A stretch of DNA of 33,915 nt, from NCBI GenBank assembly GCA_021734245.1, contig JAIPJH010000024.1, positions 1-33,915 on the forward strand, given 5' to 3'. The translations under genes and the position numbers were made by a program. Shown piece by piece: positions 29 through 26,566 of the stretch; the first letter of the stretch is position 1, and each line of letters opens with the position of its first letter. The notes under the pieces were generated by a model. The model searched no databases. It was not told the origin of the DNA and was given only the letters and a program-made list of their open reading frames with translations. Origin of the DNA: Candidatus Cloacimonadota bacterium (GTDB lineage: Bacteria; Cloacimonadota; Cloacimonadia; Cloacimonadales; TCS61).

Positions 29-1048
29 TTAACAGCCTGCTTTGCAAGCAGTTACGTTAATGGATTTTTTCAGGCATTGTCCAAGAACAGACTTACCGGC
101 AAGGCTCCGGAGGTTTTCAGCCGGAGCCGCTACCTGTTCTTGTTTCCGGTTATCCCTGGCAGGTTGCTTCCCAGCAGAGCCTGCTTCCGTTTCACCGGAG
201 TCGAGAAAATCTAAATTTGATTCTTTTGAGTCAAGTTTTTTTGAAGATAGATCTTTATTATACCGGAGTTTCTGCGGCAGCAGATCGATGTATTGCTGAG
301 CGACTCTGGGCGATAGATGTGAAAGATGACTAATTTGTTGAAGTTCCGTAATGCCATGTAACCAAAGCATTTCCACTCTATGATAATCCTTGATATAGCG
401 ATCAACAGCTTCCTTGCTGTGATGCGTTTTGGCGGCAATTTTTGGAGTAAGATAGCCTTCCAGATATAAAGATATGATTTCTCTTTTGTGCGTAATTGCA
501 CCAGAGAGATCATGGATATTTCCTCTTGTTGGCAGAAGGTGTCCCTCTTTCTGGATCTGGTTGACGTATTGGCTGACCACAGCATCTGACATTCCCAGCA
601 GCATAGCGAGATCGAGTTGTGTGAGCAGTGCTCCCTGATCGAAAGCTTCATCTACTAATCTTTGAATGCGATTCTTGCGTAATGTCTTGGTGTCGAATCC
701 GAAAGCGATATGATCGATATCGGCATCGGTAACCAAAGAGAGAACAACCGGCTTCATTCTGGTTTGAGCGATACTTTTCCCACGCTGCGGATATTCGTCT
801 GTAGGAACTGCCATCCAAACCAGTTGACCGCATTGGATATGTCGGAGATCGTCATCGATGCTTCCTACCAGAAAGAAGTCTTCCAGAAGTTGCAGGATGT
901 CGTCTACAATAGCTTTGGCAGTGACTTCTCCCTTATCATATCCATAATTATGCAGGAAGCGATGGAGCAGGTGATTCTTCAGGCTTTTGTCTTTGAGTCT
1001 TCTCACTTTCTTCAATTGGATTTGAGCTTTTGTTAATGGTTTTGTCAT
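29..1048 (-). CDS. DUF1670-like helix-turn-helix protein, second of a tandem pair
   Basis: The 339-residue protein has a central helix-turn-helix-like stretch (DLAMLLGMSDAVVSQYVNQI) and a following block with THKREIISLYLEGY and HSKEAVDRYIKDYHRV, which I recall as typical of DUF1670, a family of unknown function. The start at 1048 is chosen over an upstream ATG at 1156 because AAGGAGG lies 8 bases before it. That ribosome site overlaps the stop codon of the gene upstream, so translation is probably coupled. The last 60 or so residues are low-complexity, more GC-rich and contain a perfect hairpin, unlike the rest of the protein. It is clearly a paralogue of its neighbour. DNA binding is inferred from the HTH-like segments; the target is unknown. 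The family name is from memory and moderately sure. Confidence 0.7.
   Translation of the reverse strand: MTKPLTKAQIQLKKVRRLKDKSLKNHLLHRFLHNYGYDKGEVTAKAIVDDILQLLEDFFLVGSIDDDLRHIQCGQLVWMAVPTDEYPQRGKSIAQTRMKPVVLSLVTDADIDHIAFGFDTKTLRKNRIQRLVDEAFDQGALLTQLDLAMLLGMSDAVVSQYVNQIQKEGHLLPTRGNIHDLSGAITHKREIISLYLEGYLTPKIAAKTHHSKEAVDRYIKDYHRVEMLWLHGITELQQISHLSHLSPRVAQQYIDLLPQKLRYNKDLSSKKLDSKESNLDFLDSGETEAGSAGKQPARDNRKQEQVAAPAENLRSLAGKSVLGQCLKKSINVTACKAGC
103..128. repeat. Perfect hairpin inside the 3' end of the DUF1670-like gene
   Basis: GGCTCCGG at 103-110 and CCGGAGCC at 121-128 form an 8 bp perfect stem with a 10-base loop. It lies within the GC-rich codons of the C-terminal tail. A second small palindrome (CTGCTT, three bases, AAGCAG) lies in the last codons near position 37-51. 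Confidence 0.6.
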
Positions 1049-1056
1049 TTTCCTGA

Positions 1057-1063
1057 CCTCCTT
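1057..1063 (-). promoter_or_regulatory. Strong ribosome binding site overlapping the upstream stop codon
   Basis: On the minus strand AAGGAGG stands 8 bases before the ATG at 1048 and shares bases with the TAA stop (1062-1064) of the preceding gene. It fixes the start of the second DUF1670-like gene and indicates coupled translation of the pair. Confidence 0.8.
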
Positions 1064-1886
1064 ATTTTTCATCAAGTCCGGATTTTTTTTTTGCTTCAGG
1101 ATTAACTGATTGAGGTTCGAGCAGAGCTTGCAATCTGGGATTGCTCTTTTGTTCATAAGCTCGGAATAATTCCAAATATTCTCTTACCAGCCGGTCTGAT
1201 TTTTGTGAAATCAATCTGATTTGATTTCTTTTAAATCCTTGTTTATGCAACGTGATGATCTGTATGAAATCTATTAGATAGCGTTTCACACTTCGTTCGG
1301 AATGGTTTGTGATCCGTTCAATATCAGTGAATGTATAATCTTTGAGATAATAATCGATGATGATGGTTTTGTGAGAAATACCTGGTCCCATATCCAGTTT
1401 TGAACCACGGGTTATGATGAATTTTCCTGATTGGTTCAATGCTCTGACATCCCGCTTGACAGTAGCTGGACTGGTAGTGAGAAGCATAGCAATATCTTCA
1501 TAACTCAACAGTGCACCTTGATCGTAAGCTTGTCTGGTAATGCGGGCGAGACGATGTCGGCGAACACCGGCGGTACCATATTCTGCCAGGACATCAAGAT
1601 CGGTGTTGAAGTCGAGGAGTTTCAAACGAACATTCTTTTTTCTGCAAAGTCGGATATGCTTTCCTGCCGGTTCTTCTGCAGATACTGCTTCATAAGAGAT
1701 TTCACCGTTGGAAAGTGTTACATTGGAATGTTCTTCATAGTACTGGGAAAATTGAGAATAAAACGCTTCAGCAATGATGGGGGTAAGATTGAAATCCACC
1801 GATAGCTTCTGAATAATTGCGTCTTTGGAACTCTTGCTTTTGAGACGACCGATTCCCAAATAGTCATCTTGTTTTTTCTTAGCCAT
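1062..1886 (-). CDS. DUF1670-like helix-turn-helix protein, first of a tandem pair
   Basis: The protein is 274 residues if it starts at the ATG at 1886, which is preceded by AAGGAGAG; a longer frame back to 2087 lacks such a site and would run through the probable promoter. It shares the layout of its downstream neighbour: AYDQGALLSYEDIAMLLTTS followed by an HTH-like TVKRDVRALNQSGK, then GISHKTIIIDYYLKDYTF and NHSERSVKRYLIDF. These blocks resemble DUF1670 (function unknown). Two HTH-like segments suggest nucleic-acid binding. Only 13 bases separate it from the second gene, so the two form an operon, and a palindrome in the probable promoter would suit autoregulation. No transposase is visible beside them. 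Confidence 0.72.
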   Translation of the reverse strand: MAKKKQDDYLGIGRLKSKSSKDAIIQKLSVDFNLTPIIAEAFYSQFSQYYEEHSNVTLSNGEISYEAVSAEEPAGKHIRLCRKKNVRLKLLDFNTDLDVLAEYGTAGVRRHRLARITRQAYDQGALLSYEDIAMLLTTSPATVKRDVRALNQSGKFIITRGSKLDMGPGISHKTIIIDYYLKDYTFTDIERITNHSERSVKRYLIDFIQIITLHKQGFKRNQIRLISQKSDRLVREYLELFRAYEQKSNPRLQALLEPQSVNPEAKKKSGLDEK

Positions 1887-1916
1887 AGGACTCTCCTTAT
1901 TTTTTTTCTTTAAGAC

Positions 1917-1945
1917 GATCAGGAATGTCCAGCCTGATCTGTCAA
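1917..1945 (-). promoter_or_regulatory. Putative promoter with operator-like palindrome for the DUF1670-like operon
   Basis: On the minus strand a perfect -35 hexamer TTGACA (plus-strand 1940-1945) is directly followed by a 7 bp inverted repeat, GATCAGG (1917-1923) and CCTGATC (1933-1939), with a 9-base centre. The palindrome fills the space between the -35 box and where a -10 would lie; the -10 itself is weak (around CTGATC). The position is that of a repressor operator, but this is inference. Confidence 0.45.
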
Positions 1946-1986
1946 CCTTCCTATGGTCAATTGGACTAAACTTTAAATAGGAAAAA

Positions 1987-4404
1987 ATGAAAGTTATATT
2001 TATTCTTTTGTTTGTATTTATAAGTTTTAGTTCGTTGCTATTCAGCACCACCTGGGAAGTCAAACAAGACGGTACCGGAGACTTCACATCAATTCAGGAA
2101 GGTATCAATGCATCAGTAAATTCCGACACAGTTCTTGTTTATCCTGGAACATATTTCGAAAACCTTGATTTCAACGGAAAAAACATAACTCTTTGCAGTT
2201 TGGAGTTAACAACAGGTGATCCTCAGTATATCACTTCAACCATAATAGACGGTCAACAACAAGCTAGTTGTATAAGAATACATAATGGCGAGACCGAAGC
2301 GCGTATTCAAGGCTTTACAATTCAGAATGGCTTTGGAACTCTATTTTGGTCAGAAGATGGAGGTGGTATACTATTACATGATTATAGTACAGCCTATGTG
2401 ACAAATTGTGTATTGAAACATAATATATCTACTTTAGGTGGTGCTCTTTATGCAAGACATGGCTTTTTTTATGTTTCAGGATTGACTATTACAGAAAATT
2501 ATTCTGGTATAGGTGGAGCACTTTACATGGCTGATGATAGTACAATAACTTTCGATCAGAATAATCGCTGTAATATCTATAATAACAATTCCGGTAAAGG
2601 AGCAGATATCTATGTTACCGATACAGGTCATGTTGATATTTATGTAGATACATTTACTGTGTTTAATCCGAGTAGATTTTTTGCACAGTATTATGATGAC
2701 TCTACACTTAGTATAGACATCCAACATAACTGGATGGAACTTGAACCTAATGATCTTTATGTAGCGGTTGATGGTGATGATAACAATAGTGGATTATCAC
2801 CAGATGAACCTTTAAGAAATATATCCTGGGCAGTACGCAAGATACAAGCAGATGAACAAAATCCACGTACAATCCATGTTTCAGCAGGAACATATTCCTG
2901 GGCAGAGAATCAACAGATATATCCTTTTGGTTGTAAAGAATATGTCTCAATAATTGGAGAAGATATGGATAATACTATATTGTATAATGATTTTAGCCCG
3001 GCTGGAGTAGTTACTGGTCATAATGTACAAGGATCTATTGAAATCTCAAACTTCAGTATGCAAAATAGTTCAGATTATTATACTTGGTCGGTTGTTTTTT
3101 TTTATGAAATATTATTCTTGAAAATGTCTAACATTAATATTAGTAATAATAACAATATAAGGAATGTATTTGCATCGGAACATGTATATAATGAATTTGA
3201 TAATCTAATAATTACAAATAATACGTCTCAAAGACAATGTTCAGGTTTACTATTTGCTGATAATGCTGGTTTTTTAAAGAATAGTATAATAGAGGGAAAT
3301 GTTTGTGATGGCCCAAATCAATATGGCTATGTTGTTGCTATGCAGTTAGAGATTTTTGATGATTTTCTAGTGGAAAATTGTAAATTCTCGAATAACTCTA
3401 CGAATAACACATTTAGTCATATCGTAAGAGCAACAGGTAATTTTAATGAATCCTATGATATCACATTCAAAAATTGTTTATTCTCAGATAATGAAATTGC
3501 AAGTGATAAAGTAGTATCCTGCTTTTATACTGGAATCACAAGTTTTATAAATTGTTCATTTACGAATAATGTGTCTTCATCTTATACTTTACTTGGATGT
3601 ACTAATTTAGATTTAACGAATACAATTATGTATAATCCAGATAATTCATTAGAAATTTTCATGGAGGACCATACATCTGTGAATCCAGGGATATTTACTC
3701 TAAATGTTGATTATAGTAATATTAGGGGCGGAATAGATGGAGTTTATAATCAGAATGGGGTTAATATTATCAACTGGAATGTTGGCAATATAGACGAAGA
3801 ACCATTATTTATTCAGACTGGCAATGATCCATATCAACTTTCACAATTTTCACCTTGCATCGATGCTGGAATACCCGACACTACAGGTTTGTTTCTTCCA
3901 CCATATGATCTTCTACATCATGAACGTATTTGGGATGGAGACAATAACGGAGAAGCAATCATTGATATGGGCTGTTATGAATTTGGAGCAGATTCAGTGG
4001 GAGTTCACAATTACGAATTGCCAATTACTAAATACGACTTATCTAATTACCCCAATCCCTTTAATCCTTCAACAACAATCTCATTCAGTCTTCCCAATGA
4101 AATCACCGGACAAGCTGAAATAAATATCTTCAATTTAAAAGGCCAAAAAGTAAAAACTCTGCCTGTCACTCTGAGCCCTTCGACGCGGCTCAGGACAAGC
4201 TTAGTCGAAGAGTCAGGTATTAATCAATTGAAAGTTCCCCGTCCTTCGACGCAGCTCAGGATGACACAAGCGGGGAACAAAGAATATTCCGTCGTTTGGA
4301 ACGGCACCGACGATAACAACAAACCAGTCTCCTCTGGTATTTACTTTGCTCTCCTAAAAGCTGGAAAGATCGAAGCAAGCTGTAAGATGCTGCTTTTGAA
4401 GTGA
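1987..4404 (+). CDS. Secreted right-handed beta-helix protein with type IX secretion C-terminal sorting domain
   Basis: The 805-residue protein starts with a signal peptide (MKVIFILLFVFISFSSLLF). A first pectin-lyase-like beta-helix follows (FTSIQEGINASVNSDTVLV and IDG/IQGFTIQN-type rungs, about residues 25-250). A second begins near residue 256 with YVAVDGDDNNSGLSPDEPL, the DUF1565-like opening seen in many FCB surface proteins. The C-terminus (687-805) is a type A sorting domain: NYPNPFNPSTTISFSLP, INIFNLKGQKVKTL, WNGTDDNNKPVSSGIYF and a final KMLLLK. It is probably exported across the outer membrane and anchored at the surface. Enzyme activity cannot be assigned. The sorting domain carries about 38 extra residues (roughly 727-764) encoded by two palindromic repeats. 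The middle of the gene is markedly AT-rich. AGGA lies just before the ATG. Confidence 0.85.
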   Translation: MKVIFILLFVFISFSSLLFSTTWEVKQDGTGDFTSIQEGINASVNSDTVLVYPGTYFENLDFNGKNITLCSLELTTGDPQYITSTIIDGQQQASCIRIHNGETEARIQGFTIQNGFGTLFWSEDGGGILLHDYSTAYVTNCVLKHNISTLGGALYARHGFFYVSGLTITENYSGIGGALYMADDSTITFDQNNRCNIYNNNSGKGADIYVTDTGHVDIYVDTFTVFNPSRFFAQYYDDSTLSIDIQHNWMELEPNDLYVAVDGDDNNSGLSPDEPLRNISWAVRKIQADEQNPRTIHVSAGTYSWAENQQIYPFGCKEYVSIIGEDMDNTILYNDFSPAGVVTGHNVQGSIEISNFSMQNSSDYYTWSVVFFYEILFLKMSNINISNNNNIRNVFASEHVYNEFDNLIITNNTSQRQCSGLLFADNAGFLKNSIIEGNVCDGPNQYGYVVAMQLEIFDDFLVENCKFSNNSTNNTFSHIVRATGNFNESYDITFKNCLFSDNEIASDKVVSCFYTGITSFINCSFTNNVSSSYTLLGCTNLDLTNTIMYNPDNSLEIFMEDHTSVNPGIFTLNVDYSNIRGGIDGVYNQNGVNIINWNVGNIDEEPLFIQTGNDPYQLSQFSPCIDAGIPDTTGLFLPPYDLLHHERIWDGDNNGEAIIDMGCYEFGADSVGVHNYELPITKYDLSNYPNPFNPSTTISFSLPNEITGQAEINIFNLKGQKVKTLPVTLSPSTRLRTSLVEESGINQLKVPRPSTQLRMTQAGNKEYSVVWNGTDDNNKPVSSGIYFALLKAGKIEASCKMLLLK
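4165..4278 (+). repeat. Two palindromic repeats inserted in frame in the sorting domain
   Basis: The first element has arms CTTCGAC (4178-4184) and GTCGAAG (4204-4210), with weaker outer pairing of CTGA and TCAG. The second is bounded by a perfect 8 bp inverted repeat, GTTCCCCG (4234-4241) and CGGGGAAC (4271-4278), enclosing a CCTTCGAC...GCTCAGGATGAC core. That core recurs in inverted form at 16749-16774. Both are read through in frame and add about 38 residues to the protein. Confidence 0.75.
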
Positions 4405-19995: not shown

Positions 19996-21333
19996 ATGAT
20001 AAATTTTATGAAAACCATCGCTGCCATCACGTTCGGCTGCAAAGTGAATCAATACGAAACTTCCTGCATATTGGATGAATTCGCACAGCATGGATATAAA
20101 ATTGTCGATTTTAACAAACCCGCAGATATTTATATAATCAATTCCTGCACTGTTACCAATCGTACAGATTACAAAAGCCGTAATGCTCTACGAAAAGCAT
20201 TGCAACAAAAAGAAATCAATCCTGGAACAAAAGTGGTCATAACAGGTTGTTATTCTCAAAGAAATAGTGATGAAATTCTGAAGATCGGTGATGTAGACCT
20301 GATTGTGGATAACAACGAGAAAAGTAAAATTTATGAGTTGATAGAATACGATAAAAACCTTCCAGGTTTCGGAAACCTGGAAAGGTTGAATATTTTCGAC
20401 GAACTATCCACCACGCAAATGATCGATCATTCCCGTGCTTTTATCAAAGTTCAGGATGGCTGCGATTATTATTGTGCATATTGTGCGGTAGCTTATGCAC
20501 GCGGACCTTCCCGCAGTCGAGATAAAGATAAGGTTATAGATCAGATTACAATCCTAACTGAAAAAGGTTATCGCGAATTCGTTCTGGGTGGCATTAATCT
20601 GGGACTTTTCGGACATGAAAAAAATGATAATTATTTTCTGGCTGATCTGCTAAAAGACATCGAAAAAATCAATAAAGTCAAATTGATCCGACTCAGTTCA
20701 CTGGAACCACAACTTTTCAGTGATGATCTGCTGAATTATTTTAAAGAAAGCAAAAAGATCTGTCCGCATTTTCATATTCCACTGCAGGTTGGCTGCGATG
20801 AACTTCTTCAGAAAATGGGCCGAAAATATACAACAGCAGAATTTCTCCAAACGATCCACAAACTCAAACAAATTTTCCCAAACTGTGCAATCGGAATCGA
20901 TGTGATAGCTGGTTTGCCGGGAGAAACCGATGAACTCTTCCAGAAAACTTATGATTATCTGAAATCTTTGGATTTTACCTATCTTCATGTTTTTTCATAT
21001 TCGCGCCGTCCGGGAACACGAGCTGCAGAAATGAAAGAGCAAGTAAATGGTAAGTTCATCAATAAACGAAGTAATATTTTAACGCAACTTTCCCAGCAGA
21101 AAACAGAAAATTACATATCAAAAAGCCTGAATTCCAAAACAGAACTTCGTGGAGTTATCGAACAGAAAAAAGATGGTTTTTGGACAGCCCTTTCCGATCA
21201 TTTCATCAGGATATATATCTCTTCAGAAAAAGATTTGGAAAAAAAGTATTTACACTTTATTCCCATAAAGAAAAGATTAAATGGAATTGAAGTAGAGAGG
21301 ATAAACGTGAAAGCAGAAAGTGAAAAAAATTAA
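19996..21333 (+). CDS. mtaB: tRNA t6A37 methylthiotransferase MtaB
   Basis: The 445-residue radical-SAM enzyme adds a methylthio group to t6A37 of tRNA. The N-terminal UPF0004 domain carries three cluster cysteines, Cys15 in FGCKVNQYE, Cys51 in NSCTVT and Cys85 in ITGCYSQ. The radical-SAM domain has Cys156, Cys160 and Cys163 in DGCDYYCAYCAVAYARGPSRSR. A TRAM-like C-terminal domain follows (ELRGVIEQKKDGFWTALSDH). GCKVNQYE and YARGPSR favour MtaB over MiaB or RimO. The second ATG at 20008 begins MKTIAAITFGCKVNQ and is an equally likely start; neither has a good ribosome site. Residues 121-130, in the linker between domains, are encoded by a palindromic repeat. It is the first gene of the group leading to mlaF. 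Confidence 0.93.
   Translation: MINFMKTIAAITFGCKVNQYETSCILDEFAQHGYKIVDFNKPADIYIINSCTVTNRTDYKSRNALRKALQQKEINPGTKVVITGCYSQRNSDEILKIGDVDLIVDNNEKSKIYELIEYDKNLPGFGNLERLNIFDELSTTQMIDHSRAFIKVQDGCDYYCAYCAVAYARGPSRSRDKDKVIDQITILTEKGYREFVLGGINLGLFGHEKNDNYFLADLLKDIEKINKVKLIRLSSLEPQLFSDDLLNYFKESKKICPHFHIPLQVGCDELLQKMGRKYTTAEFLQTIHKLKQIFPNCAIGIDVIAGLPGETDELFQKTYDYLKSLDFTYLHVFSYSRRPGTRAAEMKEQVNGKFINKRSNILTQLSQQKTENYISKSLNSKTELRGVIEQKKDGFWTALSDHFIRIYISSEKDLEKKYLHFIPIKKRLNGIEVERINVKAESEKN
20356..20387 (+). repeat. Palindromic repeat inside mtaB
   Basis: TCCAGGTTTC (20361-20370) and GAAACCTGGA (20372-20381) form a 10 bp stem around a single base; outer arms AACCT (20356-20360) and AGGTT (20383-20387) extend it past one bulged base. 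It encodes NLPGFGNLER in the linker between the UPF0004 and radical-SAM domains. Confidence 0.75.
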
Positions 21334-21344
21334 TAGGAATTTTT

Positions 21345-22064
21345 GTGATAAAAATTATTGACCTAACAATAAATTTTGGGCAGCACATTGTTCTGCAAAG
21401 CATAAATCTGCAGATTCAGAAGAATATGATCACAACCATCGTTGGAGAAAGCGGTTGTGGTAAAAGCGTGCTGATGAAAGCAATTGAAGGTCTTATCGTT
21501 CCGACTTCCGGATCGATCGAGATAGATGGTGAGAAATTATTGGATCAGAATCGAGATGGAGTGAAGCGAATTCGTAAGAAAATGGCGATGCTTTTTCAAG
21601 GATCTGCCTTATTGGATTCATTAGATGTTTTTCAAAATGTAGCTCTTCCACTAAAAGAACATACACAAACCAGTGATGATGAGATTTTTGAGATCGTTGA
21701 GGAAAAACTGAACCTGGTGGGACTGGAAAATGTAATGCACAAAATGCCTTCCGAACTCAGCGGAGGAATGAAAAAGAGAGTTGCTTTGGCCAGAGCAATA
21801 ATTTTGCAACCAGATTATATAATTTATGATGAACCGACTACAGGATTAGATCCAATTATTGCTTCAGAAATTACTTCTCTAATAATGAAACTTCACAATA
21901 ATTATAATATTACATCTATCGTCATCACTCACGATCTGGATTGCATAAAAAACTTGAAAAGCAATATTGCCATGATCAATGATAAAAAGATCATTTTTAA
22001 TGGTTCATTCCAGGAATTTATGAATTCCAAAAATGAACATGTACGTAAATTTTCAGGAAATTAG
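21345..22064 (+). CDS. mlaF: MlaF-type ABC transporter ATP-binding protein
   Basis: The 239-residue ATPase has Walker A GESGCGKS (34-41), Q-loop Gln85 (LFQGSALLDSLDVFQNVALP), signature LSGGM (138-142), Walker B IIYDEPTTGLDP (159-170) and H-loop His196 (ITHDLDC). The Q-loop sequence and the MCE gene next to it identify it as the MlaF subunit of a lipid ABC importer/exporter acting between inner membrane and outer membrane. The start is GTG at 21345 with AGGA seven bases before it; it lies 11 bases after mtaB. The permease MlaE, normally adjacent, is not in the window. mlaD follows after 7 bases. Confidence 0.93.
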   Translation: MIKIIDLTINFGQHIVLQSINLQIQKNMITTIVGESGCGKSVLMKAIEGLIVPTSGSIEIDGEKLLDQNRDGVKRIRKKMAMLFQGSALLDSLDVFQNVALPLKEHTQTSDDEIFEIVEEKLNLVGLENVMHKMPSELSGGMKKRVALARAIILQPDYIIYDEPTTGLDPIIASEITSLIMKLHNNYNITSIVITHDLDCIKNLKSNIAMINDKKIIFNGSFQEFMNSKNEHVRKFSGN

Positions 22065-22071
22065 AGGAATT

Positions 22072-22971
22072 ATGAAATTCTATAAAAATAAAAAAGCCAA
22101 CGATTTCAAAGTAGGTCTGTTCACATTGATTGGATTAGCTATTTTGGTTCTGTGCTACATCTGGTTCATGGAGATTTTGGAAAATCGAAATTATTCACAC
22201 TTGAAAGTTGCCTTTGATAATGCCGGAAATACTGAAATTGGAAGTCCGGTAACCATAAATGGTGTAAAAAAAGGACGAGTAGAAGGAATAGAAGTTAAAC
22301 AGGATGGCGTAATCCTGCTGCTTAAAGTTCAACTTGATTTTACTCTTTTGGAAGGAACGGAATTCTATATTTTAGAATCAAGTTTAATGGGTGATATTCA
22401 GATAGAAATAGTTCCGGGAAATCAGGCAGCTGAACTTGATCTGAATAATGTGCATTCCGGAAAAAGACAGATGGGGCTGACGCGTCTGGTTGCCAATCTG
22501 GGAGAGATAGTTGTAGGATTGCAATCCATTATGGAAAAAGTTTACGGAGAAGATAATCTGATCGAAGATTTTCAGGCAGTGATGGACACGACTAAAAATA
22601 TCATGCACAAAGTAAGCGCTTCTTTCGATAAAAATTCATCTCAATTTGAACAATTGATTTCCAACGCAAATAATTTTTCTTCCAAGCTAAATAAGTTGAT
22701 CGACGAAAATGGGGAAGATGTTTCCGATACAATCGGTAAAACATCACTTCTCATTTCCGAAATTGATAAAACGATGCAAAATATGCAGAAGATCACGGTT
22801 GATCTGCAGTCAATTAGCCAGAAAATGAGTAATGAAAACAGCAGTTTCAATCGTTTGATCAGCGAAGAAGAACTTTATAATAATTTGTTGAAAGCCACAT
22901 CCCACATGGATTCTTTAATCCTCGATATCAAAAAAAATCCCAAGAAATACTTTGAGATCAAGGTCTTTTAA
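22072..22971 (+). CDS. mlaD: MCE-domain lipid transport protein, MlaD-like
   Basis: The 299-residue protein has a short cytoplasmic N-terminus, one transmembrane helix (about 14-33, VGLFTLIGLAILVLCYIWF) and one MCE domain (about 43-118) with LKVAFDNAGNTEIGSPVTIN and GVKKGRVEGIEV, the phospholipid-tunnel fold. From about 150 to 285 it is predicted helical, rich in Asn, Ser and Lys with heptad-like spacing, and it ends with LDIKKNPKKYFEIKVF, a common C-terminus in MCE proteins of the FCB group. It would form an oligomeric periplasmic channel that works with MlaF. AGAGGAATT fixes the start at 22072, rather than the in-frame ATG at 22033 inside mlaF. It is longer than E. coli MlaD (about 180), in keeping with a needle-like or coiled-coil type. 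Confidence 0.92.
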   Translation: MKFYKNKKANDFKVGLFTLIGLAILVLCYIWFMEILENRNYSHLKVAFDNAGNTEIGSPVTINGVKKGRVEGIEVKQDGVILLLKVQLDFTLLEGTEFYILESSLMGDIQIEIVPGNQAAELDLNNVHSGKRQMGLTRLVANLGEIVVGLQSIMEKVYGEDNLIEDFQAVMDTTKNIMHKVSASFDKNSSQFEQLISNANNFSSKLNKLIDENGEDVSDTIGKTSLLISEIDKTMQNMQKITVDLQSISQKMSNENSSFNRLISEEELYNNLLKATSHMDSLILDIKKNPKKYFEIKVF

Positions 22972-23009: not shown

Positions 23010-26000
23010 ATGAAAAAAGTTGTGATCTATTTTCTGTTATGTCTCACGATCAGTTTAAATGCCTACAGTTTTGGTCAGAATAAAATACAAAGTGGTGATG
23101 CCGAGTGGAGCAAAATTGCTACTTTGCATTTTGATATATATTTTCAAAAGGGAGAAGATGATTTTGGAAAAGCAGCTGCTTTGATGGCAGAAGAAGCTTA
23201 TTACAAGATAAAAGCTGATTTCAAATCTCCCATTCGCAGTAGAATTCCCATTATTTTCTATAAATCACGCCAGGATTTTGAAACCACGAATGTGATCTAT
23301 TCGCTGCTTTCAGAAGGTGTTGGTGGTTTTACTGAATCTTCCAGAAATCGCGTAGCAGTGCCTTTTACAGGCAGTTACAAGGAATTGGAAGAAGTTCTTA
23401 TCCATGAGTTGATGCATGCTTATGTGAATGGTTTGAACAGACAGAGAAACAGATTCATGAATCTTTCCGGATTACCTTTCTGGCTGCAGGAAGGATTGCC
23501 TGAATTTGAATCGATCCAAGGGGAAGATGTTTATAATAATATGTTCGTCATCGATCTTCTTATTAACGACGGAATTCCTTACCTGGATCAGGTCGGAGGA
23601 TATTTTGCCTATCGTCTGGGTGAATCTTTTCTGGTGTTCATAAACGATGAATATGGCAGGGAAAAAGTTGTAGAGCTTTTCTTTGCCCTGCGTTATAACA
23701 GCACAGCAAATCTTGCTTTCAAAAAGGTTTTCGATCTGGAATTTCGGGAAATTCAAAAACGATGGAAAAACTATCTGCGTCGTAAATATTTTGCTGATTT
23801 CGAAAAATTCAATATTCCATACGAAGTTTTCACAAAGCTTACCGATCATGAAAAAGATGGTTCCTACATGAATTATGCACCGGTATTTTCTCCCGATGGA
23901 ATGCATTATCTGTATTTTTCCAATAAAAATATTCGCAACGAAATCTGGATGGGATCATCCCTTAAATTGAAAGAAAAAGAATTGATCGTGAAAGGTGAAG
24001 CAAACGGAAAGTATGAAGAGTTTCACTTCCAAAAAAATAATATCAGCTGGTTTCCGGAAGGTAATAGATTTGCTTTTGTAGCTAAAACTTCATATGGTGA
24101 TAAAATCTATGTAATGGATGCTTTTTCCCAAGAAATAGCTTATGAAATTTTACTGGAAGATTTCAATTCCATTTTCGAGATAGATGTTTCGAACGACGGG
24201 AAAAAAATCGCTTTTTGCGGTCAGAAAAATGACAAATCTGATGTTTTTGTTTATGATCTGATTTCGGAAGAGATCACCCAGATTACCAACGACCATTATC
24301 ATGACTTCCAGCCAAGTTGGAGCCCGAATGATGATAAAATAGCTTTCACTTCGGAAAGAACTTTCAATTCTGAAGATAAGAACGTTTTCTATGTTCTCAG
24401 CCGAGATATTTTTTATTATGATATCAATGAAGATGCATTTTATCAAGTAACGGACGATACAACGGACAACGATACTCCATTCTGGAATAAAGATGGTGAT
24501 CAAATCCTATTCATTTCGGATGGCAGAATGTCGACAAACTATCATACGATAGATTTAAATAACGGTAAAAGAGCTCAAGTTACAAAAATTCTGGGTGGAG
24601 TTTTTACGGGAGATCTTAATCAGGATGATTCTGAATTGATATTTTCCTGCTATTACGATGGTGGCTGGGATATTTACACCAAAGCAAATCCCCTGGACAG
24701 TTTAAGCTTTGAAGAATATCAAATTCCGCAAAAAGTCAAATTTATTGATGATCTTTTTGAAAAAATAGATATCAGCGATTATGAATATTATGGAAAGCGC
24801 AAAAGAGACTTCCAGAAAGAAGCTCCAAGTTTTAACAAAAAAGTAACTGCTGTTTCTTTTGAAGACTTTGCTAAAGAAGACAGCTTACGCCAGATTCACA
24901 ATGAAGAAATTGATAAACGACCTACTGAGAAGAAAATACCCGTGATATCAGATTACAAAACGAAATTTGCTTTGGATTACGTTTGGGGTGGAATGGCTTA
25001 TTCACCTTCTGGAGGAACTTACGCTCAACTTCAGATGGGACTTTCCGATCTGATGGGAAATCACTCTCTCAATTTCAATTTGGGAATCAGTGGAACTTTC
25101 GATACATCCGATTTTATCTTCAATTATCTTTACTTAGCAAAACGTATCGATTATGGTTTTGGTGCTTTTATGCTGAACGATGAATACTATTATATTACCA
25201 ATTTCTATGGCACGAATGATTATTTCAGAGAAAGAATTCGGCAAATGGGATTATATGGAATTATTCGTTATCCCTTCAATAAATTCTGGCGAATAGATTG
25301 GGAAAATCTGATTTCCACTACGACTACAATTCGTGATTGGTGGACAGGATCAAGTTGGGAGAAAGAATATTTACCTGCTGCTTTTGCAGATTATTTTGGT
25401 TTGGAAGCTAGTGAAACAGAAACAGTTTATGCACCGCAACTTACTCTGGTGCACGATAATTCTATTTTTGGTTCTACCGGACCGATCAGCGGTTGGCGAG
25501 GAGCTCTTCTGGCAAATCGCAGTTTTTCTACGCAAGACAGCTATTCCATACTATTTGGCGACTTACGTTCCTACAATTTCTTTGCCAAACGTTATTCTGT
25601 AGCTCTTAGAGCTGCCGGTGGTTCTATTATTGGTGACACAGATTCACGCTTCGATATGGATTATTTCAATGGAGTTCGCGGTTTTGAATATGATGAAGAT
25701 GAAGATTTGCTGGGTAAAAATAAAGTGGTCGGCAGTTTTGAATTGCGTTTTCCCTTTATCGATCGTTTAAATTTTGCTTTTCCGTTGCCGCTTTATCTCT
25801 ATCAAATTCGCGGCAGTGCCTTTTTGGATCTGGGAGCAATCTGGACTGATGATCTGCGTTTAACAGAAGCTGGTTCATTGGAAGATCTGATGGCGGGAAT
25901 TGGTTTCGGGCCCCGCCTGAATATGGGATATTTTGTTCTGAAATTTGATATTGCCTGGCAGACCGATCTGGAAAGTTTCAGTAAACCCAGTTACTATTTC

Positions 26001-26021
26001 ACTCTAACTCCGGATTTTTAA
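23010..26021 (+). CDS. Outer-membrane HExxH metallopeptidase / beta-propeller / Omp85-like barrel protein
   Basis: The 1003-residue protein has a signal peptide (MKKVVIYFLLCLTISLNAYS) and three parts. Residues about 30-265 look like a gluzincin-type peptidase: HELMH at 132-136 gives both zinc histidines and the catalytic Glu133, and EGLPEF with Glu161 supplies the third ligand. Residues about 285-590 are TolB/PD40-like propeller repeats (YAPVFSPDGMHYLYFS, QPSWSPNDDKIAFTSER, DTPFWNKDGDQILFISDGR). Residues about 655-1003 resemble the C-terminal barrel of the BamA/TamA surface-antigen group, with GVRGFEYDEDEDLLGKNK, FELRFPF and a terminal Phe. It lies 38 bases after mlaD with AGGATAG before the ATG, so it is probably cotranscribed with mlaFD. 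The pieces are recognisable; the function of the whole is unknown to me. Its stop overlaps the convergent next gene by four bases. Confidence 0.8.
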   Translation: MKKVVIYFLLCLTISLNAYSFGQNKIQSGDAEWSKIATLHFDIYFQKGEDDFGKAAALMAEEAYYKIKADFKSPIRSRIPIIFYKSRQDFETTNVIYSLLSEGVGGFTESSRNRVAVPFTGSYKELEEVLIHELMHAYVNGLNRQRNRFMNLSGLPFWLQEGLPEFESIQGEDVYNNMFVIDLLINDGIPYLDQVGGYFAYRLGESFLVFINDEYGREKVVELFFALRYNSTANLAFKKVFDLEFREIQKRWKNYLRRKYFADFEKFNIPYEVFTKLTDHEKDGSYMNYAPVFSPDGMHYLYFSNKNIRNEIWMGSSLKLKEKELIVKGEANGKYEEFHFQKNNISWFPEGNRFAFVAKTSYGDKIYVMDAFSQEIAYEILLEDFNSIFEIDVSNDGKKIAFCGQKNDKSDVFVYDLISEEITQITNDHYHDFQPSWSPNDDKIAFTSERTFNSEDKNVFYVLSRDIFYYDINEDAFYQVTDDTTDNDTPFWNKDGDQILFISDGRMSTNYHTIDLNNGKRAQVTKILGGVFTGDLNQDDSELIFSCYYDGGWDIYTKANPLDSLSFEEYQIPQKVKFIDDLFEKIDISDYEYYGKRKRDFQKEAPSFNKKVTAVSFEDFAKEDSLRQIHNEEIDKRPTEKKIPVISDYKTKFALDYVWGGMAYSPSGGTYAQLQMGLSDLMGNHSLNFNLGISGTFDTSDFIFNYLYLAKRIDYGFGAFMLNDEYYYITNFYGTNDYFRERIRQMGLYGIIRYPFNKFWRIDWENLISTTTTIRDWWTGSSWEKEYLPAAFADYFGLEASETETVYAPQLTLVHDNSIFGSTGPISGWRGALLANRSFSTQDSYSILFGDLRSYNFFAKRYSVALRAAGGSIIGDTDSRFDMDYFNGVRGFEYDEDEDLLGKNKVVGSFELRFPFIDRLNFAFPLPLYLYQIRGSAFLDLGAIWTDDLRLTEAGSLEDLMAGIGFGPRLNMGYFVLKFDIAWQTDLESFSKPSYYFTLTPDF

Positions 26022-26566
26022 GAAGGATTCTTAACCCTTTTTGGACTTAACACCTGAAATGCTTCCCGGCAATCACTTTCTTTGCCGTCCCGTCGTGAAC
26101 TTACATTATAGAAATTGATCACAATTTCAGGGAAGAAATCTTCCAGAACGGAGACTATTCCTTTGGCAAACGTACGACAATAAATTGCGCAAATATCTTC
26201 GTGACATTGTTCTGCAAGTTTTTCAGCTTCAATCGTTAAGCAATTCTTGCAGAATTTAGTTTCCAGGAAAACTGTATTTCCTTCTGCCCAGATATCCGGC
26301 ATATTTCCACCTCGATCTGCAAAATAGCCCTGTAGAAATTCACGAACTCCTTCCACCGGATTTTGTCGGAAAGCTTCAATGTCAAATTTTCCTGCTTTTG
26401 TGAGTTTGGTCAATCTTTCCATTCCCACAGCAAAACCGGAATAGGAGTTATTCTTTTGAATTGCTCGAAAGGCAATGTTACCAAACTTTTTGTGCAGAAG
26501 TGCAAAATCATTTAGTTCTTCTATGCGAGTTTGAAGACTGAGATTATTGATTCCTTTATCATTCAT
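26018..26566 (-). CDS. Cysteine-rich protein of unknown function
   Basis: The 182-residue protein starts at an ATG with AAGGAG before it. Its C-terminal half holds a cluster of cysteines, KFCKNCLTIEAEKLAEQCHE, then DICAIYC, and later SDCREAF, in a pattern (CxxC, C, C, C) that could bind a metal or cluster. NFYNVSSRRDGKESDCREAF recalls the end of L-2-amino-thiazoline-4-carboxylate hydrolase-like or similar small families, but I am not sure of this. No signal peptide or membrane segment is present, so it is likely cytosolic. Its stop codon overlaps that of the convergent outer-membrane protein gene. Confidence 0.7.
   Translation of the reverse strand: MNDKGINNLSLQTRIEELNDFALLHKKFGNIAFRAIQKNNSYSGFAVGMERLTKLTKAGKFDIEAFRQNPVEGVREFLQGYFADRGGNMPDIWAEGNTVFLETKFCKNCLTIEAEKLAEQCHEDICAIYCRTFAKGIVSVLEDFFPEIVINFYNVSSRRDGKESDCREAFQVLSPKRVKNPS

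Follow-up and report, generated by a model that had tools for sequence, protein, structure and literature searches.

A propeller in front of an Omp85 barrel is known from the WD40-Omp85 subfamily, which Heinz and Lithgow described in 2014; they showed no function for it and proposed a BamA-BamB-like platform (PMC4104836). The 'Metallo' Omp85 subfamily of the same authors rests on PF00149, a domain unlike the peptidase reported below (PMC4104836). Fusions of an MCE protein to a barrel (MlaD-barrel fusions) were described in 2023; the MlaD of Veillonella spans the envelope by means of its C-terminal barrel, which is reportedly missing from FCB-group MlaD proteins (PMC10665443). TamA and TamB set a precedent for an Omp85 protein that ends a lipid bridge (PMC12800296).

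The DNA analysed here (the window, 33,915 nucleotides in its whole length) is contig 24 of a Cloacimonadota assembly that is 98.5% complete. Positions 23010..26021 of its forward strand encode, from an ATG start and in a single unbroken frame, a protein of 1003 amino acids for which we coined the label PPB (peptidase-propeller-barrel protein). A sequence-only reading of this gene had recognized a zinc protease, TolB-like repeats and an Omp85-like barrel in one polypeptide, and knew of no described function for such an architecture. We found none either, but the propeller-Omp85 part had been described in 2014 as WD40-Omp85 (PMC4104836). The open-access literature that we searched, main texts only, described neither a peptidase within the propeller-Omp85 architecture nor a link between that architecture and MCE genes; this combination and this linkage appear to be new, while the propeller-Omp85 and MlaD-barrel parts are known.

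Architecture and conservation of PPB

The chain begins with an N-terminal signal peptide (approximately residues 1-20, 23010..23069; MKKVVIYFLLCLTISLNAYS, followed by FGQNK) that has no lipobox cysteine and forms a helix at residues 2-18 in the structure model. A gluzincin-like Peptidase_MA_2 domain occupies residues 30-261 (23097..23792), with a Pfam match at residues 60-256 (E 2.3e-8, 34.6 bits against a cut-off of 32.4); neither an M48 peptidase nor TPR was matched in the Pfam scan. It contains the HELMH motif (residues 132-136, with H132, E133 and H136; 23403..23417) and, within WLQEGLPEF, the glutamate E161 of a WxxEG signature (23490..23492), which is the presumed third zinc ligand. The sequence-only reading had placed HELMH and EGLPEF in one polypeptide, and its residue numbering proved exact. 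The TolB-like beta-propeller (about residues 285-576, 23862..24737) was recognized by PD40 repeats (Pfam, E 5e-15), by Foldseek, and by a weak and partial match to the NCBIfam TolB model, whose score of 89 bits stayed below the cut-off for the full TolB profile (343). A variable linker with one helix (617-634) follows at residues 577-650 (24738..24959), without a single invariant position among 53 homologues, and leads into an Omp85-type barrel at residues 651-1003 (24960..26018), with 16 predicted strands and a C-terminal phenylalanine. All these features lie on the forward strand. In a genome-wide profile search, PF01103 (Omp85) matched PPB at about residues 865-985 with 33.9 bits (cut-off 24), a match that covers profile positions 177-306 only and is unlisted by hmmscan of the full protein. 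The same Pfam scan identified no POTRA family in PPB, the peptidase and the propeller filling that space.

An AlphaFold2 model built with 13 related sequences (mean pLDDT 73.8, pTM 0.71) has an alpha/beta peptidase domain at 30-261, a propeller at about 285-576, the variable linker, and 16 C-terminal strands between 653 and 1001, the barrel part being of low confidence in places (some stretches beyond residue 880 have pLDDT values under 60). Omp85 proteins carry a conserved (V/I)RG(F/Y) motif in loop 6, between strands 11 and 12, and the VRGF of PPB (residues 889-892, 25674..25685) sits in this very position, between strands 862-875 and 904-922 of the model. Foldseek searches with the model matched TolB (E 3e-13) and BamA/FhaC (E about 1e-8 to 2e-9). 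A profile of the PPB barrel, compared with proteins of its own genome, matched the TamA-like protein with an E of 1.6e-10 over 220 columns and BamA with 2e-5 (shuffled control 0.13), the TamA-like protein being the closest among those compared. PPB is thus a member of the Omp85 superfamily, by its 16-strand barrel, its loop-6 motif and its PF01103 match, and one that lacks POTRA domains.

The three domains that the sequence-only reading expected a structure prediction to reveal, namely peptidase, propeller and barrel, were all recovered in the AlphaFold2 model, and the profile families to which it had pointed were all matched (Peptidase_MA_2, PD40 and Omp85 PF01103). The C-terminal barrel, on which that reading staked itself, is present with 16 strands and Foldseek matches to BamA/FhaC. 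Its anatomy of a periplasm-facing zinc-protease fold, a TolB-like propeller and an Omp85 barrel is supported.

Conservation was assessed in 53 full-length homologues that are 35-69% identical to the PPB of the window. Invariant in all 53 are H132, E133, H136, W158, E161, G162, E165, R890 of the VRGF motif and the terminal F1003, and the four catalytic-site residues that the sequence-only reading named (His132, Glu133, His136 and Glu161) are thus conserved throughout. Mean column conservation is highest in the peptidase domain (0.66, versus 0.58 in both propeller and barrel); with its site invariant and the domain the most conserved, the catalytic motif must be under strong selection. Judging from its family, the peptidase would bind zinc and cleave protein.

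PPB was found in 119 of 125 Cloacimonadota genomes and in 70 of the 71 good ones; almost all of them carry a single copy of full length. The sole good genome without it (G041) also lacks MlaD1, the MCE protein discussed below, and since the short MlaE gene is kept there, an assembly gap is possible. Second copies were seen at two places: a divergently transcribed gene for a 977-residue Peptidase_MA_2 paralogue, 26% identical over its N-terminal part, adjoins an MlaD1-PPB pair (L073:10405-13338), and another copy of about 30% identity is located on contig 56 of genome G097. A scan of contigs for relatives of PPB yielded only close ones, all assigned to Cloacimonadota by identity and genome matching, and a search of viral contigs for homologues yielded none. 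Plasmid records contained one informative distant homologue, on plasmid pSR116 of Salinibacter ruber (L097:5935-7836; 28% identical, E 4e-59). It consists of peptidase and propeller only, without barrel, and starts after the signal peptide with FGKNK much as PPB does with FGQNK; the gene that follows it encodes a serine carboxypeptidase and not a barrel. Chains resembling PPB presumably occur in other FCB phyla as well.

Gene neighbourhood and MCE operons

Directly upstream of PPB, on the same strand, lies a gene for an MCE protein that we call MlaD1 (22072..22971, with a possible ORF start at 22033), which has a transmembrane helix, one MCE domain (PF02470, E 8e-9), a long helical tail and no barrel, according to the alignment and a low-confidence model. 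It is preceded by an MlaF-like ABC ATPase gene identified by profile matches (21345..22064), which overlaps the MlaD ORF, and by a gene for a MiaB-like radical-SAM methylthiotransferase (19996..21333, Pfam) that heads the syntenic block. MlaD1 and PPB are separated in the window by 38 bases without a convincing terminator, and a promoter and terminator scan gave results near chance. Two further observations concern the surroundings. The gene at 26018-26566 on the reverse strand encodes a 182-residue protein that has no confident Pfam match; its identity of 85-87% to counterparts from other genera of the family far exceeds that of the neighbouring genes. At the start of the window (29-2087, reverse strand), two DUF1670 genes that overlap in tandem and show helix-turn-helix matches possibly belong to a mobile element.

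The linkage was examined in 40 PPB loci, all within Cloacimonadota. An MCE (MlaD) gene lies directly 5' of PPB in 34 of them, which corresponds to 34 of the 36 loci where the genome has MlaD1 and gene order is readable. The gap between the two genes has a median of about 9 bp and is at most 103 bases in 30 of these 34 loci. The six remaining loci comprise a contig end (G098), two genomes of family f11 in which MlaD1 is elsewhere, unlinked to PPB (G103, G104), and three in which it is absent (G092, G117, G119). In part of the phylum the pair belongs to a longer syntenic run of AspRS, MiaB, MlaF, MlaD and PPB, while at 17 of the 34 loci something other than MlaF comes before the pair and other synteny differs, so that the MlaD-PPB pair outlasts its synteny. 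Across the 40 neighbourhoods, PPB showed no linkage to bam, lpt, sur or deg genes. A third MlaE gene near PPB in family f11 was considered as a re-association and dropped: its neighbours resemble, by sequence, an MFS-type transporter and a peptidase, MlaD is not among them, and in G103 the gene points away from PPB, with unrelated genes between the two.

Apart from the MCE domain, no conserved stretch of MlaD1 in the alignment is longer than its C-terminus (LDSLLxDIKKNPKKYF). A tail of the form DSLxxDIKxNPxxYF is kept across the phylum, unlike the LNEFSRQISEDPxxLLR tail of the second MCE protein described below, and is a possible docking motif. The short MlaE presumed to serve MlaF and MlaD1 lies outside their operon, on contig 25 of the same genome (L098:6150-6902). 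Among 18 genomes tested, it is absent from G092, G117, G119 and G121, all without MlaD1, and present in the others, including G041.

Three genomes from two families (G092, G117 and G119) have no MlaD1, no adjacent MlaF and no short MlaE, and nonetheless keep a full-length PPB, which directly follows MiaB. A fourth (G121) has neither MlaD1 nor short MlaE and contains a PPB match over residues 16-976 at a contig end; it is probably a further genome that keeps PPB after loss of the transporter. PPB of the three genomes is about as conserved as in transporter-bearing relatives, the barrel identity of G092 being at most slightly lower, and a relaxation of particular domains in genomes without the type-1 transporter was not clearly seen in per-domain identities. 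PPB is therefore not lost together with the MCE transporter; it is spread more widely than its proposed partner and cannot depend wholly on it. The retention of PPB after loss of the partner is a pattern that resembles a shared outer-membrane component with several clients, or a factor with a job of its own.

The same genome has a second MCE operon (L099:4416-8433 on contig 69, and L101:2061-2804), which encodes MlaD2, a fusion of a PqiC-like part and a barrel, an MlaE with STAS domain, and MlaF. The gene after MlaD2 combines a PqiC-like ABC_trans_aux match just under threshold (25.1 bits, cut-off 26) with a DUF481 barrel region above its cut-off, and the STAS-MlaE gene comes next. The order is found again throughout the phylum, where several genomes encode the lipoprotein part and the barrel in two adjacent genes. 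Profile comparison detected no similarity of this barrel to Omp85. Both MCE proteins thus directly precede an outer-membrane barrel protein, and the two barrels are of different origins. A profile search of the genome, in which the controls were matched, detected no MlaA or MlaC. The genome has a separate BamA, a TamA-TamB pair and one more POTRA-Omp85 protein; we assigned the names BamA, TamA and TamB from Omp85 matches, protein length and the order of genes. The LptD model had no match, and a Bacteroides control was also missed by this model.

Candidate roles

The most likely job of PPB, to which we would give an even chance, is to serve the type-1 MCE transporter, composed of MlaE, MlaF and MlaD1, as its outer-membrane terminus or docking partner. 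The N-termini of Omp85 proteins are periplasmic by default, and the signal peptide, the barrel topology and family knowledge would place the barrel of PPB in the outer membrane and its propeller and peptidase in the periplasm. MlaE and MlaF would then power lipid movement through a hexamer of MlaD1, whose helical tail would span the periplasm and dock with its conserved end on the propeller or barrel of PPB. The barrel would exchange phospholipid with the outer membrane in either direction, much as has been proposed for TamA and its partner TamB, and the peptidase may clear or process misassembled components, or regulate docking. The domains, the conserved residues, the presence throughout the phylum and the gene linkage are observations, whereas we infer the location of PPB, its docking with MlaD1, lipid transfer and proteolysis. 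MlaD proteins of the FCB group reportedly have no barrel of their own, a gap that a barrel supplied in trans would fill.

The main rival, which we regard as rather unlikely, is that PPB acts independently of MCE in the assembly or quality control of the outer membrane, its peptidase degrading stalled outer-membrane proteins held by the propeller beside the Omp85 barrel, as a single-chain analogue of BepA and a BAM/TAM subunit. By function, if not by peptidase family, this agrees with what the sequence-only reading suggested. The invariant catalytic residues in the most conserved domain speak for it, as do the near-universal presence of PPB in the phylum, its retention after loss of the type-1 transporter, and a barrel whose closest relative among those compared is the TamA-like protein. 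Against this, PPB is linked to MCE genes and not to bam, lpt, sur or deg, its peptidase falls outside the BepA family, and the genome already has BamA, TamA-TamB and another POTRA-Omp85 protein. A BepA-like quality control, as suggested by the sequence-only reading, is possible because a few genomes keep PPB after MCE loss, but it is not what gene context favours, the conserved context being an MCE/MlaF lipid-transport operon and not one of Bam or Lpt.

Gene order itself could mislead: the MCE linkage may be inherited operon order without a common pathway, PPB having an unrelated outer-membrane job, for instance in secretion or nutrient processing. The housekeeping run from AspRS to PPB in part of the phylum, and the position of PPB behind MiaB where MlaF and MlaD were lost, would agree with this. 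We consider it improbable, however, as the MlaD-PPB pair is kept at the 17 loci where the rest of the run is gone, and as the other MCE operon has a second, unrelated barrel in the corresponding position. Least probable, in our view, is a type Vd-like display, as suggested for PlpD (a patatin-Omp85 protein), in which the barrel exports peptidase and propeller to the cell surface. PlpD too has an enzyme domain N-terminal to an Omp85 barrel (PMC4104836), and the barrel-less plasmid homologue of Salinibacter indicates that peptidase and propeller can act free; a folded propeller nevertheless stands between enzyme and barrel, the operon context is that of an inter-membrane transporter, and the default orientation of Omp85 N-termini is periplasmic.

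Returning to PPB as the outer-membrane end of the type-1 transporter, we tentatively propose, at somewhat less than even confidence, a wider rule by which barrel-less MCE proteins of Cloacimonadota, and perhaps of the FCB group more widely, use barrels encoded by the next gene in trans, the type-1 version being an Omp85 protein with a propeller dock and a zinc protease. FCB MlaD proteins are reportedly barrel-less and neither MlaA nor MlaC was found in this genome; a phylum-wide MCE-barrel gene pair is a direct, testable candidate for how such transporters reach the outer membrane. If the rule were true, Omp85 proteins would terminate MCE lipid bridges at the outer membrane in the way that TamA does for TamB, and the superfamily of protein-assembly barrels would gain a link to a second route of lipid transport. 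None of these readings accounts for the invariant protease site that shares the chain with the barrel.

Comparison with known systems

Individual parts of PPB recur in several described systems. TolB shares the propeller fold (Foldseek, E 3e-13) and the PD40 repeats, but is a propeller only, and PPB remains at 89 bits against the NCBIfam cut-off of 343. BepA (M48) has in common with PPB an HExxH metallopeptidase motif and a presumed periplasmic location, whereas the peptidase of PPB is of the Peptidase_MA_2 type, has no TPR, and shares its chain with an integral barrel. PqiC and MlaA act at the outer membrane for MCE proteins, which either share an operon with them or require them; they have no sequence relation to PPB, and PqiC-like and barrel domains belong instead to the second MCE operon.

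The closest likenesses are found among barrel proteins. TamA/TamL share the 16-strand Omp85 barrel, the PPB profile matches the TamA-like protein of its own genome, and TamA serves the lipid-bridging TamB; PPB differs in having propeller and peptidase in place of POTRA domains, and an MCE protein rather than an AsmA-like one as gene partner. In WD40-Omp85 proteins, which we set beside PPB by architecture, a TolB-like propeller is located N-terminal to an Omp85 barrel without POTRA, as in PPB, whereas the peptidase domain and the MCE linkage are features of PPB that go unmentioned in the portion of the source available (PMC4104836). Finally, the MlaD-barrel fusion of Veillonella parvula couples MCE and outer-membrane barrel without MlaA and MlaC, as we propose for MlaD1 and PPB, but does so in one polypeptide (PMC10665443), while the barrel of PPB is separate, of the Omp85 type, and joined to an enzyme and a propeller.
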